Shown here: one piece after another, positions 1,293 to 36,291 of the stretch
Numbering within the stretch: the first letter of the stretch is position 1
Layout of the letters: every line of letters begins with the position of its first letter
DNA from: Haemonchus contortus
Lineage: Eukaryota > Nematoda > Chromadorea > Rhabditida > Trichostrongylidae
Direction: 5' to 3'
Length of the DNA stretch: 64,000 nucleotides
Assembly: GCA_000469685.2 (NCBI GenBank)
Contig: LS997566.1
Coordinates: 32,110,996-32,174,995 of the forward strand
Notes under the pieces: generated by a model
Database searches by the model: none
What the model saw: the letters and a program-made list of their open reading frames with translations, nothing else
What the model was told of the DNA's origin: nothing
Made by a program: the position numbers and the translations under genes

Positions 1293-2860
1293 CAGTGCGT
1301 TTCATAATTATAAGGTCACCCCAGATTTTTGCGATTCCGGAGAAAGCAGCCAGAATGCAATTTTTTGGCAAACACTGGTAGATTCCTCGTCACAATGTAC
1401 CTCTGTACTCAAATTTTGGTCGCAATATCTTTCACCTCAAATTTTTTACGAATTTTTTAAAGATAGTGTCGGCTTTTGCACCGTTTCATAATTATAAGGT
1501 CACCCTGAGGAAGTAAATGATTTATCAATGTTAATGGCATATGTACAACAGTTAATAATCTATAGCTCCTCCTTGTTTAGGAGCAACATCAAAGAGCCTG
1601 TGTGGCATACCAGAAACTAGGTTTCGAAGATGTTCCTCATCGGTTGCTCTCCATGCTTCGATAAGTGCTCGCTTCAGCTCTTCTTTGCCCTGGAACTGAC
1701 GGTTATTCGCATAAACCTGTCTGAATATTATGTCCCAGATATGTTCCATCCGACTGAGGTCGGGACTGCAGGCTGGCCATGGTAGGACGCTTATTTATTG
1801 GCATTGCAGCCACTCATCCGTTGCACGGCTCACATGATTGTAGGTATCTTGTTGAAAGACATAGTTGAGGTGACGGCGATGGCATAGAAAAGGTACTAGA
1901 TGATGCTCCAAGACTTTCTGGTAATCCTCGAAATCCATACCGCAGTTCACGACAACACGACATCATTGCAGAACCACCCCGCACCATAGGCTTCCTCCAC
2001 CGAAACTGCGACGTCTGAAGTAGACTGGTTCCTTCCTCAATCGCGCCAGTATCGCTTGTTTCCGTCAGATTGAACTTCTTTTCATCCAAAAAGACGACCT
2101 GAGTAGGAATTATTCAGCTCTATGGTGAGATTTCGATGCAGATCTACCTTTGCCCAATCTCTCCCTAGGTTCATCTTTGCAAATCCGAGTCGAGCCTCTT
2201 TGTGACGATCGGTGATTCGTGGCACCTTCTCCATTGCTTGCCTGGTGATGTTTTCGCATCTTCTCACTGCTCTCCAGACTGTAGTTTTCGACACAGAGAG
2301 GTTTAATTCCGATCGGTTCTGGTTCAAGGAGGACGTACTGTTGGAAACAGTCCTCAGAATTTTCCGCTCATCACGAGTAGTAATCTTTCATGGGTGTCCA
2401 CAGTCGGTGTTATATCTAACGACATGAGCACTCTCTAGAAATCTCCGAATGGACCAAGGGGATCTCTCTATTTGCCTGGAAATGGCTCGAGTACGGAGCC
2501 CACCTTCATGATGAGCCTTCTCATCAGAGGAAAGCAGATGACCACGAGCCATGTTGACAGTCAGGTTTAGAAATGCCCTTACTACACATGCTTACCTTTA
2601 CAAGTATCTTCAAACACGAAATTTCCTCTCTTTCGTAAATAATTGTTCACTTTCTCAGGGTGACCTTATAATTATGAAACGGTGCAAAAACCGATAAACT
2701 GTTCTAAAAAAGTTCAGAAGAATGCAGCAGCGGCTAAGCAACGGATACCTAGGTTATTCGTGCTGGGGAATCTGTTCATGATGCTAGAAAAAATCCTTAA
2801 TGATTACTTTTTTTGAAAGTGCAAAAATTGAGGGTGACCTTATAATTATGAAACGCACTG
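1293..2860 (-). mobile_element. Tc1-like DNA transposon, decayed, with doubled (IR/DR-type) terminal repeats
   Basis: The element is bounded by TA dinucleotides, the Tc1/mariner target duplication. Both ends start CAGTGCGTTTCATAATTATA (1293 inward; 2860 inward on the other strand). The same motif followed by AGGTCACCCT recurs inside each end, at about 1,482-1,507 and 2,655-2,682. Each terminal repeat is therefore about 205-215 bp long with a direct repeat at its outer and inner edge, the layout known from IR/DR Tc1-like elements such as Sleeping Beauty. A broken minus-strand transposase gene fills the interior. Total length, 1,568 bp, is normal for this superfamily. Confidence 0.85.
1552..2552 (-). 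pseudogene. Tc1-like transposase pseudogene
   Basis: Reading on the minus strand, an ATG at 2552 opens an N-terminal helix-turn-helix region. It is broken by an in-frame stop near 2,390, after which the frame resumes. The middle holds a Tc1-family signature (KTTVWRAVRRCENITR, then a DEKKFNL motif around 2,075-2,095), but those parts lie in different frames, so at least one frameshift separates them. The C-terminus (about 1,552-1,750) ends in the family-typical pattern around a MPHRLFDV motif followed by Lys-Gln-Gly-Gly. The DDE catalytic domain cannot be read as one protein. The copy is inactive and could move only if an intact transposase elsewhere recognised its ends. Confidence 0.8.
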
Positions 2861-5800
2861 TATTATTATAATATAAAACTTATCAGGCCCAAATGCTACA
2901 ATTAGACTGGCTTCAGACACATGAGAAAGAACGCAGTGAAAGAGAAAAAAAGCCAAAAATAAGCGTCAATCTAGCCAAATCCAATTATCTTGTCATTAGA
3001 CAAAGACGAAGTGAAAGGCGGAACTCAACCAACCTGTTGAATCCACTGAAATCATGACACGGTCAGTGGAGAATGGCTTAACAACACCAAGTGTCGAATT
3101 ACCTTCTCTAAGCTGCCCTTGACTATTGAAGACTTATTTAAAGAGCTTTTTCGAGCTTTCCCTTTGTTTCACTCGCAGAAATTCTGAAAGCTGCAGCTGC
3201 AGCCCTATTATCACAACAGTTCCATTTTTCTGTTCACTTGACTGAGCTTATGACGTATATATCTATCAATCTATTCGATAAAAAGCTATTCGCTCTCTTT
3301 CAATCTCGACAGCTGACGAAGATTGGCTCTTTGAGATGGGATTGGCGCATCGAGCCCTTATTTCCTTTGATTGCTGAGGAGCTGCAGCTCTGGAGCTGCA
3401 AAGTTGTCAAACCGATAAGATTACGGTGGAAAATAGATATAAGGGAAAGAGGGGGGGGGGGTTGGAGTTGGACCGAATTTGTAAACAAAGCTGACCTTGA
3501 CGTTCAAAATTCAGATTACAGAAAATTTGCGTAGTTCCATTAATGTCCTTCATATTGCTGGGAAGAAACTTATGTTTTATCAAAATTTCGTACTTGTACG
3601 CCTCGTCTTGCGGGCACAAGCAACAAACCATTTTGCTTCTGCCCTCGCCATCCATGGTAGACTGAAAATCTGACGAAAACGACGATGTGAGGAATCGTTC
3701 AACTGCATTCACACCTGTTTTACAATACATGGTCAACGAGTACATCCCCAGTGTGGCACCAGGCCTATTCTTTGATCGTGAAGACCCTGTGGTAGCCCAC
3801 TCGGCTGTTCTTCTTGTCCATCTGTCATCATCTCTTCTCATGATCAAGGCCTCGTAACAAATGATGATAAATGTTACTCATCATGAGTGATCTTTTGCAG
3901 AATCCCTGCAAAAGCCTCACTTGATGGAGGGTTACCTTTATGCAACCTCGAGCATCGGATACAGACCAAAGGATTCATAGAACTCGTTAAAGTCGAAGTT
4001 TTTTGGGGATTAACAGCCTTATATAACGTCGAATGGATGACAAAGTAGCACCGACGAGCACAAAGCTTCTTTTCCTTATCACAATGAATTCGTTCTGGGT
4101 GGAGAGAAGCAGGAAGAAGAAAAATGTGTAGAGTAAGTCAAAAAATGAAAATTTAGTGTAACGAACTTCAAAAGGAGCGTGCTTCGAGTTCAAGGGATTA
4201 AATGCATGGCTGCTGGTGCCCTGGAAGAGCAGCAGGAGTTTGAGTATTACTAAGACTAAACTTTTTGCCCATAACTTTTCGTCCTCTTTGGGACTTGAAA
4301 GAGTTTTTTCTAGAAGAGCTATACAACATAAACATCGCATAGAAAATCTCACAAAGTCGGCCATAAATGCAAAACCTTGGCCTCGGATGGGACTTGATCC
4401 GTACTTGTGCTCTGCGGGCGTTGTGCTCCTAACCCTGACACAAGCGACCCTGGTTGTACCCTGCTTATCAGTTAGCAAGAACACCAAGTCAAAGTGCTCT
4501 GAAACGGCTTCGTGGTGATGTGGAGATTTCAATGAAATGAAAATATCGTTTGAGAGTTAGCGATGTGAAAGAATACTAGTTTTTCAGAGATAATCATCAG
4601 TCCAGAATGGATGGCGAGGCAGACGGGCGCTGTGGGCCTCAGCGAGACTGGTGAAAGTTTAGAGAGTCGAAAGGGCAGAGTTGACAGTTTATAATAATCC
4701 GGATGGGGGTAGTGATGTGGCAGGAGCGAAGCGGGGCAGGGGGACCAATTGATCGCTGGCCTATTGATGTTGTTGAACGGTACGGGAATGACATGTGTGT
4801 ACATTTAAGCACTGCTCTGATAATGGAGCAAAGTGGAACCAAGTTCCACGTGGGTGGCAAAAAGCACTTGTATTATAAACCAGACTGCAGGTCTGATAGT
4901 CCCTATGCAGATTGTGCTGCTTTTGGAGAAAAGCCTCTCGATAGTGATTTTAGCCAGAAGTCTGCAACTTACAGACTAGACTTACAATCTTTCGAATGCA
5001 TTGCAGGTCTTGGAAAGGGTCGTGGAAGAAGGAGTAAGGGCATACAAAACGTCCAGGACTCTGAAAATCTACCAAAAGCCTAAAAATTGTTTAAAGTTCT
5101 TCCCCTTGAAGAAGGAATAAAAGCAACTGGAACAACTTCGAAAAAAAGATTCCGAAGAATTTCGTTTTTCAAGTTTTCCCTCTTTTCAACTATTCCCTTC
5201 AGGTTTACTATATAAAACTGATTTTTCATTGACTGCTGATAATAGTCTAAGAATTTCGGACCTTCTCTACTGATGAATCAGTTGGAGATCCATTGGTGAC
5301 TCAAAAAGGGATGTAGTTCCTCTAAGAGGCTTCATATTCACCCCTCTTTTAAGGTGAGTCGATCTATTTGAGCCGAACTTTCCCTGAAAACATCGAACAT
5401 GTCGGAAGCGAGAACTACTCAATCTGTGCGAATGCTACAACATGATAATGAATATGTATATATGGAAGTCTCGTAAGCCGAAATTCTTTATCAAAGAATC
5501 AGAGAAAAAAACCAAATCTGGCTCTTATCATTAAACCAATCTATCAGTCACTCACTCACAAAACAGTAGCGTTACTATTTGATGGCCTACTCTTGAGAAA
5601 GTGTGAAATTGTTGTGACCCTTTAGTTTTATTCCAAATATTTCTACATCCACTGAGCTGCTGCCACGAATAGTGGAGGTCCCTGCACCCTATCGATGTTT
5701 GAATCTTCATGCAAGAACCTTACTTGTTAAGGCTTCTACGAACTATTGGACTTGCTTGGGACTGTTCCTATTCAGGCGAATGCTAACTTAGCTATCGGCC

Positions 5801-30151: not shown

Positions 30152-31074
30152 TATTAGGTTGAGTCATAAGTCCTCGGACAATGTGATAGGGATGAATTCT
30201 AGCAACCATAACTCGGGAAAGAGGTGGCGATAATGAACGAGCTAAGCATTGTTAAATAGAGTATGGAAAGCTCTTCCAAATGCATACTGGAGTAGGCACC
30301 TAACTGTTTGCTTTCCCGCCACTGTGCCTCATGATTTCAAGCCGTCGCAACTCCACATCCGCAACACCACCATTTATATTATTTATCTGGCCATGAACCC
30401 GCGGCAATCGATACAGGTATGAAGGACGTCCACAAGCAGGACGTGTACAATTTATAAGTGGCACCAGAAGTTCGCATTGGGTGACTATTCCATCGAAAAT
30501 GACGACCGTCCGGGACGCTCAATGAAGTTGGATTTGGAGGTGCTGCGGAGCAAGGTGGGAGCCGATCCGTATTAAACTACTCGTGAATTGGCAGTCACCC
30601 TTGGGGAGTCAGTCCACAGCTCTTCGTGAATTGAAGTCAATCGACAAGGTGCGAAAGCTCGATCCATGGATGCCTCATGCTTTGAAGCAGTATGACATAG
30701 ACCGCCGCGACGACGTGGCACTTTCTCTCCTCACGCTCAATGGCACCACACGTGGCTCGAGTACCTGGTCACCAGGGCTGCGAAGTCGATCCTCTACTCT
30801 AACGTTCACCGGCGTGCTCAATGGATTGACAAAGGTGCGGATGCAGAAGGCTCCCTAAACCCAACGTACTCGCCAAGGAGATGATGCTCTGATTCTGGTG
30901 GAGCGTTCACGGTGTAGAATAATGGGAACTGCTAGACGAGGAATGCACTGTGACCGCACACGTCTACATTACGCAACTGAGGATTGAAGGCGAATCCCGA
31001 AGCTACACGTCCACAGCAGCACGAAGTTCGCTTCCAGCAGGACAACGCTCGCCCTCACATTGCAAGAACGACCA

Positions 31075-31620
31075 TATACTGAAAACTTCAGTATTTCAGT
31101 ATTATTATTCGTTTGATACTTTGCTCTGTTCTCTGATGTTAATGGAACTTTCTCAGCATAAGCCACACGTTTACTGTAACCAGTAACTTGAACAATGCGT
31201 TATCTGTCATATCATCACGCATATGTTTTGAGAAGCAGGCTGGCACCCGCATATAAGCATGCCGGTGAAATCATAGAATACTGATTCATTCTATTGAACT
31301 TCTCCTTTCAGTTTCTTATTTCTTGATTATGCACCGTCACTTTGAGTTTAACTTCATTCATAGGATCTTTAACTACACTTAGCACGATTAGCATTAGAAC
31401 CCGCTTGGTATTATATCCATTTCTCGGGAAGAGTTAGTGTAGCCCTTTGATTCTTTTGATCCTTTGATTACTTCCTCCGAAGATGTGTTTCTTATTAGAA
31501 TTATCATTATCTTAGTTAGTAAAGGTTTAATTACCCAAGTTTGAGGTCGTATCGTGTACAAGTCCCGCGTGGCAGAGTTTTAGCAACGAACATATCCCAT
31601 ATAACTACACGACGATTTTA
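31075..31620 (+). repeat. 5' LTR of the BEL/Pao element
   Basis: 546 bp beginning TATACTGAAAACTTCAGT and ending ACGACGATTTTA. The start can fold into a short hairpin (ATACTGAAA / TTTCAGTAT). It holds a perfect 22-nt SL1 sequence at 31,524-31,545, leaving 75 bp to the LTR end. Confidence 0.92.
31524..31545 (+). promoter_or_regulatory. perfect nematode SL1 spliced-leader sequence in the LTR, with splice donor
   Basis: All 22 nt of the nematode SL1 exon are present, from GGTTTAATTACCC to AAGTTTGAG. The next two bases are GT, as in a real SL1 RNA, but the downstream sequence (GTCGTATCGTG) is not that of a standard SL1 RNA. An identical copy lies in the 3' LTR at 35,851-35,872. The position, 75 bp before the LTR end, fits a transcription start or R-region start. 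Confidence 0.9.
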
Positions 31621-31621
31621 G

Positions 31622-31635
31622 TGGTGCATCGACGG
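31622..31635 (+). other. primer-binding site candidate (tRNA-Gly-like)
   Basis: TGGTGCATCG directly follows the 5' LTR with a one-base gap. It complements the CGATGCACCA 3' end typical of nematode tRNA-Gly. The match weakens after about ten bases. Confidence 0.55.
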
Positions 31636-31834
31636 CTTATTAGAACCGGAATCTTATTGTTGGAGTTATTCACTCTTGACAGGCACCGCTCTACTTGTTA
31701 CTTCGTTACGATTACGTCATCATCGATTTGCTGAGCACGAGCACGAGATCTTCAATATCGTTAACTGTCATAGACAAGTCTGTTATCTCATCTCTAACCC
31801 CACTAGTCCTTCCGTAAAAAATTATTAGCGTGAA

Positions 31835-33742
31835 ATGGCATCGTTACTAAGAACAAGAAAATCGTTGCTGACACGGCGAATAAATTCTTTCGGAGAGTGG
31901 CTCAAGGAAAGCGAGAGCTTACTTGCGCACCCAACCGAAATAGAAGTGTCGAAGCGAGTCAAGGATATTCGGGTTGGACTAAAAATATGTGAGGAAGGCA
32001 TAGTAACCATAGAATCTTCACTGGACAAGCTGGGGGAGGCCTTTGAAGAACTCGAGGAACATTCAGCAGAGGATGACGAAAAATTCGACAAGTATGTGGA
32101 CTCAGCGAACGATATGGTTATCAAGCTGAGCACGTTCAAGACACAACTGCTACGGGCTTTGGAAGACTGCACGGATCCTAGCGGCAGAGGCACGGCAGAA
32201 GACAGCAACGGCTCAGTAGCACAGGCGGTGGTTTCCAGTCCCCTATCACTTAGTAAACTTCCTGAGATACCCATTCCGAACTTTAGCGGAAAGCGGTGGG
32301 AATGGGATAACTATTGGGCGTTATTCCTAGCGAACGTGCACAACCAAGAACTGACAGATTTGCAGAAATACAACTATCTGCCATCATCACTCACGGGCGA
32401 AGCGAGGCAGTCAATATCAAGGTTCCAGGTTTCTGCAGCAAACTACCATAAAGCCATAGATCATTTAATGAAAAGATATGGTCACAAGGATGGCATAATT
32501 CTGGAACTGCACAGAAACTTGAACCTTTGCACTGCACGTGGAGCACGAACAATAGATCAGCGACAACTATTCGAAAAGTTGTCAGCAATCGCGGCCCAAC
32601 TTCGGAACCATGGGGAACATCTGGACAACTATCTAACCGTGCATACTTTTCTCCAAAAGTTTCATGCAAGAATCCAGAAGGCTGCAACGAAACGTTGCAT
32701 GAAATTTGAGACATCCCTCCCTCACGAGGAGCCACGACAAGCGCAGACGCAAGGAGACTCCGACTGGACGTTGGAACTATGGCTTAACACCATAGACAAC
32801 ATCATCGCAGAAGAAGAAAGGCTACAGGATATGCTAGCCAAAGACAAGGAACGATACATATCACAACTGCCCTCGACTAAGGGACTACTCACAGCAGCAT
32901 GCGAGTGCTGCAAACTTAAAGGGCATAAATGGAGTACATGCCCCAAAATTCCAACCCCCTCAGCCCTTACTGCTCATATGCTCAACCCCGAACATCAATT
33001 ACCCATCATACGACCAAATGTGGAATTTCGAAGGCAACGCGACCTAGTGGTGGCACGTATACCGAATTTACCTACGGCAGAGTTCATCGTTAGGATTAAG
33101 GACGAGCTTCATACAACGACGGTAACATCAGACGCCGTTTGTTCAGTAAAAAGCACAGAATGCACAGGCTGCTATAACTGCGCAAAAGGAGCACTAGCTG
33201 AAATTATATGTGCATCTTCTACACCTCAAGAAAGAGCAGAAATCCGATGCGGAGACTACGGATTTACGGTCCCCTGTTCATCTCAAGGAACCAAATCACA
33301 GCTTCGCTTCGCTCCCAAACGAGCACAGTTCCATCTCAATTGCACGGTACAATGTGGAAGGATCCAACAAGCGTTTGAGATAGACGGTATTCTTCGGTAT
33401 ACCGGAGTCTTAAGTACGGCTCTAAGAAGAGTTCTTAGTGGAGAAAGCGAAGTTTTTTCGGAAATTAACTTCCCAGATATCAGCCATATCCTAGATGTGT
33501 TCCTCGGATGGAGCGGAACACTGCTCATCACAGCGCTCGTTGTGTTTATGGCACTTTTGACAACATACATCTTTTTGACTAACACTGCATGCCTTTTCAT
33601 CCTGAGATCAATCTATCGCCTCATTAAAATTAGTTGTCGATTGCTATATCAGATTACGAGGATAATCATTTGCATGCCAGCGAGATTATTCCACCATCTA
33701 CACAGAGAAAACATGGCGAAACCGGAAGGAAAACTATACTAA
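31835..33742 (+). CDS. BEL/Pao Gag fused to an Env-like C-terminal tail
   Basis: A single open frame of 635 codons. Residues 1-120 are acidic and helical. Residues about 150-300 hold the Pao-type Gag block with LPEIPIPNFSGKRWEWDNYW and the LTGEARQ...YGHKDGI region (DUF1759-like). One CCHC zinc knuckle lies at residues 356-369. From about residue 385 the character changes to a Cys-rich ectodomain with CTGCYNCAKGA at about 445-455. A hydrophobic segment at about 562-590 is followed by a basic tail. This second part resembles the membrane-proximal region of phlebovirus-like Env proteins known from nematode BEL elements. Pol, which normally lies between Gag and Env, is absent, and so is most of Env. 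Whether the joint arose by deletion or is conserved in the family cannot be told from one copy. Confidence 0.8.
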   Translation: MASLLRTRKSLLTRRINSFGEWLKESESLLAHPTEIEVSKRVKDIRVGLKICEEGIVTIESSLDKLGEAFEELEEHSAEDDEKFDKYVDSANDMVIKLSTFKTQLLRALEDCTDPSGRGTAEDSNGSVAQAVVSSPLSLSKLPEIPIPNFSGKRWEWDNYWALFLANVHNQELTDLQKYNYLPSSLTGEARQSISRFQVSAANYHKAIDHLMKRYGHKDGIILELHRNLNLCTARGARTIDQRQLFEKLSAIAAQLRNHGEHLDNYLTVHTFLQKFHARIQKAATKRCMKFETSLPHEEPRQAQTQGDSDWTLELWLNTIDNIIAEEERLQDMLAKDKERYISQLPSTKGLLTAACECCKLKGHKWSTCPKIPTPSALTAHMLNPEHQLPIIRPNVEFRRQRDLVVARIPNLPTAEFIVRIKDELHTTTVTSDAVCSVKSTECTGCYNCAKGALAEIICASSTPQERAEIRCGDYGFTVPCSSQGTKSQLRFAPKRAQFHLNCTVQCGRIQQAFEIDGILRYTGVLSTALRRVLSGESEVFSEINFPDISHILDVFLGWSGTLLITALVVFMALLTTYIFLTNTACLFILRSIYRLIKISCRLLYQITRIIICMPARLFHHLHRENMAKPEGKLY

Positions 33743-34020: not shown

Positions 34021-35388
34021 ATGATCCAACAGGCACGCTATGAGTACGCCGCACTAAGATCCGATAAGGAACACCTTTTTAATAGAAGAGGCGGAGCGTT
34101 TCACTACTTAGTGAAACTCAGACAGCTGGCATCATCACATCGTCAGCAAAGAAAAGAGCTCGTCACCTTTACGGAACTGTTCGTTCTATCGCACGAGTGG
34201 TATGAAATACTGGTAACCGCGGACGAAGTGGAAGAACTTTCCAGACTCGAATTCCTTAGCAAACTGGGAGAAGAGGAGTACGTGGAGCCAACAGAACCTG
34301 GAGACCGAAACTACCCGGAACCAGTTAAAACGCACCGAAGCTACTATCAAAAGGACGTGACCACAATGATCAGGCACCAACTCATCAAATTCGACGCCCT
34401 ACTCGAAGAAGAACAGGAGGCGTGTGAATTCGCGGAGGCAGAGACTAGGAGAAATACCACACTGGAAGACGAGGCGTTGCGTCAAATGCGTGAATCATTC
34501 GATGATTTGCAAGATGAGATACGCCGACAAAAGGAAGACAACACGGAATGGATTGAGACTGTAAGGGATAGCTACTATTCGTTCATGGAACAAAACAAAA
34601 GAAATGTGGAGAATTCTAAAGCAATGGCAGCGGAACTTAAAAGAGTAGAGGCAAACCAGAGGGAGATTATCACTCAAATGACGAGATACATGAACGAGTG
34701 CCAGCACCTTGCCGCAAAGATCGAAGAAAATTTGATGGAATCACGTAGTCGGGAAGAAGAGAAACAAATGGAGCACGATTGCACTAGTCCCGGCTGTTCA
34801 AGAACGGGATACAAAAGGAAACACTATGGAGTACACATCCCTACCGCGGACAAGGAGAAATATGAAACGATCTTGAAGCAAAGCTTGCAAGAATTGCAAG
34901 AGATCGATGACTTCCTCAGCTACAATGTCATCAAAGAAAGACGTTATGGCGATAGAGTCATGAAAGAGACTGAGGAAGGGATGGCATGTGTATACTGTAA
35001 AACGAAGGGCAGGCATTACTCAGATGCTTGCCCGGAAGTACGACTCGTATCCAAACGACTGGAAATATTGAACTCGGAAAAAAGATGTAAGGAGTGTCTC
35101 GGGTACCACTATCGTAAGGAATGCACTAAAAAATTGCCTTGTTTTTATTGTAAGGCTGGTAAGTACCAGGACGACTTCGATCATCACTGCAGTGTCTGCA
35201 GGAAACCTGAAGAAGTCGAAAACAAACTTAAACGAAGAGGAGAAATGCAAATTATAATTGAGTTCTGTGAAAAGGCACTTGAAAGTATTGACTTCAGGAA
35301 CTCTTCAGAGACGCGCGCACAAGCACGACAAGAAACTACAAGGACCAGCCGACCTCAGCGTTACCGAAGGAGTTATGAAGCACCTTAA
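34021..35388 (+). CDS. coiled-coil / triple zinc-knuckle protein of the BEL element (3' ORF)
   Basis: 455 codons, ending 13 bp before the 3' LTR. The frame is open from about 33,946, so the true start could be a spliced exon. The ATG at 34,021 is the first in frame. Residues 1-130 are mixed helical. Residues about 130-250 are strongly charged, with long Glu/Lys/Arg runs and heptad-like spacing, and I read them as coiled coil. Residues about 320-400 carry three zinc-binding clusters: CVYCKTKGRHYSDAC, CKECLGYHYRKEC and CFYCKAGKYQ...HHCSVC. A basic, Arg-rich tail ends the protein. The zinc triad resembles the nucleocapsid end of Pao Gag proteins, but here it is in a separate gene after Env. A role in RNA binding or packaging is inference. 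Confidence 0.7.
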   Translation: MIQQARYEYAALRSDKEHLFNRRGGAFHYLVKLRQLASSHRQQRKELVTFTELFVLSHEWYEILVTADEVEELSRLEFLSKLGEEEYVEPTEPGDRNYPEPVKTHRSYYQKDVTTMIRHQLIKFDALLEEEQEACEFAEAETRRNTTLEDEALRQMRESFDDLQDEIRRQKEDNTEWIETVRDSYYSFMEQNKRNVENSKAMAAELKRVEANQREIITQMTRYMNECQHLAAKIEENLMESRSREEEKQMEHDCTSPGCSRTGYKRKHYGVHIPTADKEKYETILKQSLQELQEIDDFLSYNVIKERRYGDRVMKETEEGMACVYCKTKGRHYSDACPEVRLVSKRLEILNSEKRCKECLGYHYRKECTKKLPCFYCKAGKYQDDFDHHCSVCRKPEEVENKLKRRGEMQIIIEFCEKALESIDFRNSSETRAQARQETTRTSRPQRYRRSYEAP

Positions 35389-35401: not shown

Positions 35402-35947
35402 TATACTGAAAACTTCAGTATTTCAGTATTATTATTCGTTTGATACTTTGCTCTGTTCTCTGATGTTAATGGAACTTTCTCAGCATAAGCCACACGTTTA
35501 CTGTAACCAGTAATTTGAACAATGCGTTATCTGTCATATCATCACGCATATGTTTTGAGAAGCAGGCTGGCACCCGCATATAAGCATGCCGGTGAAATCA
35601 TAGAATACTGATTCATTCTATTGAACTTCTCCTTTCAGTTTCTTATTTCTTGATTATGCACCGTCACTTTGAGTTTAACTTCATTCATAGGATCTTTAAC
35701 TACACTTAGCACGATTAGCATTAGAACCCGCTTGGTATTATATCCATTTCTCGGGAAGAGTTAGTGTAGCCCTTTGATTCTTTTGATCCTTTGATTACTT
35801 CCTCCGAAGATGTGTTTCTTATTAGAATTATCATTATCTTAGTTAGTAAAGGTTTAATTACCCAAGTTTGAGGTCGTATCGTGTACAAGTCCCGCGTGGC
35901 AGAGTTTTAGCAACGAACATATCCCATATAACTACACGACGACTTTA
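35402..35947 (+). repeat. 3' LTR of the BEL/Pao element
   Basis: Same 546 bp as the 5' LTR. I saw only two substitutions in the alignment by eye (one near position 123 of the LTR, one near the end). It contains the second SL1 copy at 35,851-35,872. The preceding GGGGCCGGAG may serve as the polypurine tract. Confidence 0.92.
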
Positions 35948-36291
35948 GACCAAAACTGAACTGACGAATTTCGGCAGGACAAGTTTGCCACACCATTCAT
36001 GTTCCCCAGACTTAGTTCCTTCGGATTACCAGCTTTTTCCTCATCTTCAATGTCATCTGGATGGTCAGGACTTTCAAACCCGCGACGACATCAAAATGGC
36101 ACTGGGGCAGTTCTCCAAGGGCCAGCTCTCAGCGTTCTAAAGCAAGGGCATCTACGATCTGCCCAAACATTGGCAGAAGGCCATCGATGCCAATGAGGCG
36201 TATTTCAAATGATTCGCTATTGTCGTTTAAAAATTGTAAGATAAATATTATCATTGCCAATTTGTCCGAGGACTTATGACTCAACCTAATA

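Follow-up and report, generated by a model that had tools for sequence, protein, structure and literature searches.

Introduction

Why would a retrotransposon carry, at the same place in both of its long terminal repeats (LTRs), a perfect copy of the spliced leader of its nematode host? This question is raised by a stretch of 64,000 nucleotides of the Haemonchus contortus genome (hereafter the window), in which the 22-mer GGTTTAATTACCCAAGTTTGAG, identical to the H. contortus SL1 sequence as printed by Doyle et al. (PMC7652881), occurs twice within one element of the BEL/Pao type. We describe where SL1 lies in these and related LTRs, how well it is kept, and which process may have placed it there.

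A BEL/Pao Element With SL1 in Both LTRs

Both SL1 copies of the window are exact, lie on the + strand and are followed by GT, and the chance expectation for SL1 at up to three mismatches, estimated from 100 dinucleotide shuffles of the window, is 0 (Table 1). They occupy the same offset in two 546-bp LTRs that differ from each other at 2 positions, with 75 nt between the end of SL1 and the end of the LTR, a placement already given in the first-pass annotation. The element measures 4.9 kb and has the target duplication GACCA on both sides; its DUF1759 gag, LTRs, target duplication and tRNA primer site identify it as BEL/Pao, and, as in the SL1-bearing PAO elements of Brugia, same-strand SL1 copies are found near both of its ends. 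A processed retrocopy of a trans-spliced mRNA was considered and rejected, given that the element has LTRs and that no host coding sequence follows SL1.

Table 1. Features of the SL1-bearing element, in window coordinates
Feature	Position	Strand	Evidence or remark
5' LTR (546 bp)	31075..31620	+	2 differences from 3' LTR; target duplication GACCA at 31070-31074
AGTAAA directly before SL1, perhaps a variant poly(A) signal	31518..31523	+	GATAAA or AATAAA at the equivalent place in other LTRs
SL1 22-mer, putative 5' part of R, 5' LTR	31524..31545	+	exact match, shuffle control
U5 box CCCGCGTGGCA	31564..31574	+	complementary to host tRNA-Gly(GCC) (anticodon loop, 3' stem)
Primer-binding site TGGTGCATCGA	31622..31632	+	tRNA-Gly 3' end, 1 mismatch
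Putative splice acceptor AATTATTAG before gag	31820..31828	+	sequence only
gag, 635 aa	31835..33742	+	DUF1759, E 1.9e-23
3' accessory ORF, 455 aa, Cys/His clusters by eye	34021..35388	+	sub-threshold Pfam match only (BPS1, E 0.006)
3' LTR	35402..35947	+	LTR comparison; target duplication at 35948-35952
SL1 22-mer in 3' LTR, putative start of 3' R	35851..35872	+	exact match
U5 box, 3' LTR	35891..35901	+	offset as in 5' LTR; LTRs identical here

A pol region (Pao-type protease, reverse transcriptase, integrase) was not found among the ORFs of this copy, which is therefore taken to be a short non-autonomous derivative of longer relatives, such as the element L046/L047, whose SL1 copies lie 10.3 kb apart. 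The 3' accessory ORF was compared with 13 other 3' ORFs and matches 12 of them, all but that of L066; its relatives adjoin 3' LTRs in other families.

SL1-Bearing LTRs Across the Genome

The genome scanned comprises 283,439,308 bases in 7 contigs and holds exact SL1 at 263 sites. Eighty-two of these are followed by GTAY, as in the SL1 RNA gene arrays on C1, and subtracting them leaves about 181 sites outside the arrays, a figure that rests on nine inspected array units. The arrays, built of units near 298 and 319 bp, lie at C1:14.89-14.91 Mb and 30.85-30.88 Mb. At the non-array sites the next bases are GTB (106), GV (48), A, C or T (17) and GTAR (10). Neither the viral nor the prokaryote contig collection contains an exact match to the 22-mer.

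Of the 181 non-array sites, about two thirds were read. After array units, identical 200-nt contexts, sites within some 90-110 nt of a locus end and one site with SL RNA-like upstream sequence (L052) had been dropped, 111 sites remained, which formed 37 clusters; the 20 clusters with a U5 box or a primer site are treated here as LTR families. The first-pass annotation had envisaged a search of related LTRs for SL1, and within this one genome these 20 clusters bear out that the sequence is common to many of them. Among the 12 LTR families in which a 5'-side ORF was scanned, 10 encode DUF1759, the other two being L067 and L082.

DUF1759 coordinates further provided a denominator that is independent of SL1. 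From 643 candidate gags 150 were scored, against a list of 175 SL1 sites that omits 6 GTB sites and the GTAY class, and for at least 27 of them an exact SL1 of this list lies upstream on the same strand at no more than 3.5 kb; in 24 of these 27 pairs SL1 and gag are 709-823 nt apart. On the opposite strand, no SL1 was found within 3.5 kb on either side of the 150 gags. For the remaining 123 the list contains no exact SL1 in that upstream stretch, and SL1 is not universal among the gags of these elements. The one SL1-free element that was read (L155) possesses AATAAA and the U5 box, and its SL1-like score is at the shuffle level; SL1 is thus not needed for this way of life.

SL1 Lies at the Presumptive 5' Edge of R

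The surroundings of SL1 were compared among the 20 LTR clusters. AATAAA or GATAAA occurs within 40 nt past SL1 in 14 of them when judged by the first member and in 15 when judged by any member, as opposed to a shuffle mean of 0.31; three control windows gave 0, 1 and 2 of 20. The poly(A) count does not depend on the choice of clusters by box or primer site. The window family and a few others have no downstream signal, and AGTAAA, GATAAA or AATAAA directly precedes SL1 there; L072, L145, L092 and L154 have no close downstream AATAAA, and GATAAA or AATAAA abuts SL1 upstream.

Further downstream, the U5 box CCCGCGTGGCA is present at up to two mismatches in 17 of the 20 clusters (shuffle 0.09), a partly circular figure, since possession of a box or a primer site was what qualified a cluster; the fairer figure is 11 of the 14 clusters having a primer site. 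The reverse complement of the box corresponds to the anticodon loop and 3' stem of tRNA-Gly(GCC) of the host, for which a gene was confirmed. After the 5' LTRs comes TGGTGCATCGG, exact or nearly so, which complements the 3' end of this tRNA. Contacts of U5 with the anticodon arm of the primer tRNA are known from retroviruses, for example from HIV-1 and tRNA-Lys3. The complementarity found here is alike, involving tRNA-Gly(GCC) and BEL/Pao LTRs in place of the HIV-1 pair, and the box is probably a second contact with the primer. Tandem gene arrays of the apparent primer tRNA, tRNA-Gly(GCC), with 162-bp units, lie at C3:28.52 Mb and 29.32 Mb. As SL1 precedes poly(A) signal, U5 box and primer site, it falls at the presumptive U3/R border, namely the 5' edge of R.

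Identical SL1 Amid Unrelated Flanks

Between clusters, the mean identity of U3 is 0.519 (0.511 when shuffled) and that of R is 0.495 (0.480 when shuffled), based on 20 representatives, and we take the identity of SL1 across the clusters to have been kept, not left over. Conservation ends sharply after the 22 nt, except for a purine at the next base, which is found in 19 of 20 representatives (P 4e-5). This base is G in 18 of 20, and the second base is variable, giving GT in 10 of 20. GT varies even within families.

The clusters were retrieved via exact SL1, so that perfect SL1 is ascertained in them, and the count of mismatched copies serves as a check. At up to two mismatches there are 607 sites genome-wide, 344 of them with one or two mismatches versus about 181 exact non-array sites, a ratio that fits an SL1 divergence of at most about 5% if one common divergence is assumed; the estimate would fall if SL1 RNA genes are among the 344, as they may be, and a similar ratio could arise from young and old copies mixed together. 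Furthermore, 8 of the 19 LTR pairs compared show no LTR-LTR difference, which marks the five families concerned as recently active; among the pairs, the alignment of L074/L073 missed SL1, and L082/L083, which has no primer site, is perhaps no true pair.

Tandem SL1 Relics

At five places SL1 stands immediately before GTTTAACTACCTAAG, which is itself SL1 with two changes. The upstream copy is perfect in four of these five tandems, and the downstream relic carries two changes in all five. Two of the tandems are the two LTRs of one element (L145, L148), and the three others, known from the match alone, are taken as the same family. In addition, SL1 followed by TTTGAG occurs in two further families, one represented by L018 and the other by L099/L100, whose two LTRs are identical and both carry it. 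The relic junctions come after AG, formed either by an A of U3 plus G1 of SL1, or by A15 and G16 of SL1. Joining of SL1 to such an AG followed by reverse transcription would yield exactly these tandem products, and slippage can explain those of six bases; the 15-nt relic probably reflects one event in one family. These tandems lend support to a possibility raised in the first-pass annotation, namely that SL1 in the LTR derives from a trans-spliced template and was fixed during reverse transcription.

None of the 4 exact SL2 copies of the genome lies in an LTR; over a length of 116 nt each of them has the sequence of an SL2 RNA gene. Reverse-transcribed host mRNAs with SL1 are present as well: L104 is apparently a retrocopy of a kinesin mRNA (by Pfam) that starts with perfect SL1, and L006, L017 and L147, which likewise start with perfect SL1, we take to be retrocopies of other host mRNAs.

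A Host-Derived Start of R and Competing Explanations

The reading that we favor, at a probability of about 0.48, is that SL1 forms a host-derived 5' part of R, which would be delivered by trans-splicing and would be able to mediate first-strand transfer. Trans-splicing would put the host SL1 on the 5' end of the element RNA, and the 3' LTR encodes the same 22 nt, mostly just before the poly(A) signal, so that SL1 would be present at both RNA ends. Reverse transcription primed by tRNA-Gly would copy U5, R and SL1, and the resulting strong-stop cDNA, ending in the complement of SL1, could pair with the SL1 of the 3' R. The leader would then be copied into both new LTRs, and SL1 mutations could be overwritten by the host SL1 in each cycle. 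What speaks for this reading is the SL1 common to clusters with shuffle-level flanks, the ratio of mismatched to exact copies, the poly(A) signal behind SL1, the box that accompanies most primer sites, the relics with their AG junctions, the purine after SL1, the SL1-headed retrocopies and the absence of exact SL2 from LTRs; an RNA 5' end at SL1, trans-splicing in each cycle and a use in strand transfer are inferred from these. A fuller version, more tentative than its core, holds that the host might supply part of R in every cycle, that the SL1 of the LTR might serve as the landing site of the transfer and that SL1 RNA might overwrite the LTRs, thereby keeping unrelated families identical.

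Some observations count against the trans-spliced R. The relic AGs are poor acceptors, and the own end of SL1, GTTTGAG, has G at -3, where the usual nematode acceptor rule is UUUCAG. The TTTGAG repeats could stem from 6-nt slippage, and the repeated GTTTGAG of L111 is at odds with an AG junction. L092 and L154, with flanks dissimilar by eye, have two SL1 changes in common, which suggests an inherited variant and no obligatory renewal. The many related gags for which no SL1 is listed weigh against this reading as well.

Ranked below the trans-spliced R, and possible at a smaller probability, is direct initiation of transcription at the first G of the encoded SL1, which would act as an initiator, as a 5' sequence favored in host translation, or as both; R would likewise begin at SL1, and no trans-splicing would be involved. 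The position of SL1 at the presumptive start of R and the sharp limitation of conservation to 22 nt plus a purine speak for it, as does the tandem family, in which a perfect upstream copy (4/5) and a changed relic (5/5) are what selection on the 5' end would give. The promoter of the Ascaris SL RNA, moreover, reportedly requires the SL sequence itself. Direct initiation leaves unexplained, however, why a new SL1 is joined ahead of an old one. Moreover, no promoter motif at a fixed position upstream of SL1 was found in 22 families, only a T-rich composition and certain 6-mers, such as TTTGTT, which occurs upstream of SL1 in 10 of 22 families and in 3 of 22 in a control stretch.

That SL1 is a passive fossil, occasionally added to expressed elements and integrated along with them with no later role, is improbable. 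Such an explanation has been given for the PAO elements of Brugia (PMC7181701), and the SL1-headed retrocopies of host genes described above are in keeping with it. On the other hand, perfect SL1 stands in 20 LTR clusters whose flanks are at the shuffle level (these clusters being ascertained via exact SL1), it is also perfect in the 8 of 19 LTR pairs free of LTR-LTR difference, and its distance to gag is nearly constant.

A further suggestion of the first-pass annotation, a built-in donor by which SL1 plus GT would be a 5' exon cis-spliced to downstream acceptors, is very improbable. Its positions were accurate: a candidate acceptor, the acceptor-like AATTATTAG, ends at 31828 ahead of the gag ATG at 31835, and GT follows SL1 in the window and at 116 of the 181 exact non-array sites. 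As a general feature the donor does not hold, however: only 8 of the 20 LTR clusters have GT in every sampled member, 7 have it in no member, it is variable inside families, and the window reads GAG/GTCGTA, unlike the donor consensus GTAAGT. With GT absent from 7 of 20 clusters, what is conserved here is not a donor for cis-splicing.

Least probable of all is that SL1 merely marks a recombination hot spot or a captured fragment of an SL1 RNA gene: L018 and L087 do have a common R/U5 with different upstream sequence, and in L042 (2362, reverse strand) gag is joined to SL1-R-U5 without U3 over 11 shared nt, yet only 15 site pairs are discordant versus 197 concordant ones, several of the former being explicable by divergence, and the other sampled LTRs, by eye, have no SL1 RNA sequence past the 22-mer. 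The L042 junction, GTTTAATTACC, is a stretch common to SL1 and gag and looks like a template switch. An exchange of U3 at SL1, considered as a candidate of its own, was found weak, with few discordant site pairs. As for the captured gene, also proposed in the first-pass annotation, L009 and L010 read GTAAACGTT after SL1, which presumably recalls the C. elegans SL1 RNA; the third member of their cluster, L128, is without GTAAACGTT, and GTAAAC follows SL1 at 9 genome sites. Apart from these two, the LTR flanks differ by eye from the SL1 RNA array units, which read GTACTTTC or GTATTTTC after SL1, the window reading GTCGTATC.

Relation to Known Systems

SL1 beside Pao elements is already known from Brugia malayi, where PAO lies no more than 1 kb away from 60 of 120 intrinsic SL1 copies (Foster et al., 2020; PMC7181701). 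As in H. contortus, SL1 22-mers, sometimes two on the same strand, flank PAO-type LTR elements there, away from the SL1 RNA arrays. In the relevant parts of that account, however, SL1 is described as flanking and not as part of R, and is read as an integrated product of trans-splicing; a poly(A) signal, a tRNA box, relics and a comparison of families, all present here, do not figure in them (PMC7181701). In C. elegans, too, the RNA of an LTR retroelement, Cer1, gains SL1 by trans-splicing (PMC3315495). Cer1 differs in being Gypsy-type and in that its spliced 2.4-kb mRNA is trans-spliced while its 8-kb RNA is not, and the sections of that paper on Cer1 RNA mention no LTR-encoded SL1 (PMC3315495). 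A new leader ahead of an older relic, following retroposition of trans-spliced RNA, has been described for dinoflagellate DinoSL retrogenes (Haro et al., 2025; PMC12014239); these are, as far as the pertinent sections tell, host genes with no LTR, and the leader is not in a terminal repeat. In the open-access literature, subscription papers being mostly outside the search, we found no report that places SL1 in R or shows SL1 relics in LTRs, and it is for the SL1-in-R architecture that no precedent turned up there.

Trans-splicing would otherwise destroy the terminal repeat of an LTR element; if the favored reading is true, these elements make the host leader the repeat, and a host RNA writes itself into the LTR of a mobile element in each cycle. 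They would then also offer a direct test of what the SL1 sequence does apart from splicing. In practical terms, SL1 in an LTR would be a sequence tag for recently active nematode belpaoviruses, and caution would be due with reads that contain SL1 and with "SL1 genes", since element RNA may be their source.

Viral-Type Genes Beside SL1-Bearing LTRs

Two SL1-bearing LTRs (L066/L067, C1:38042002-38044465), located 2.4 kb apart, flank an ORF of the totivirus RNA polymerase type. This ORF matches RdRP_4 (E 3e-6, 26.9 bits versus a cut-off of 22), the primer site of the 5' LTR is exact, and from its appearance a retroelement has here taken up a gene of an RNA virus; among solved structures, the polymerase-like ORF had no match. 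In L082 (C3:36760323), an envelope ORF at 1629-3023 that matches Phlebovirus_G2 (E 3e-92) lies directly after an SL1-bearing LTR of the L025/L026 family.
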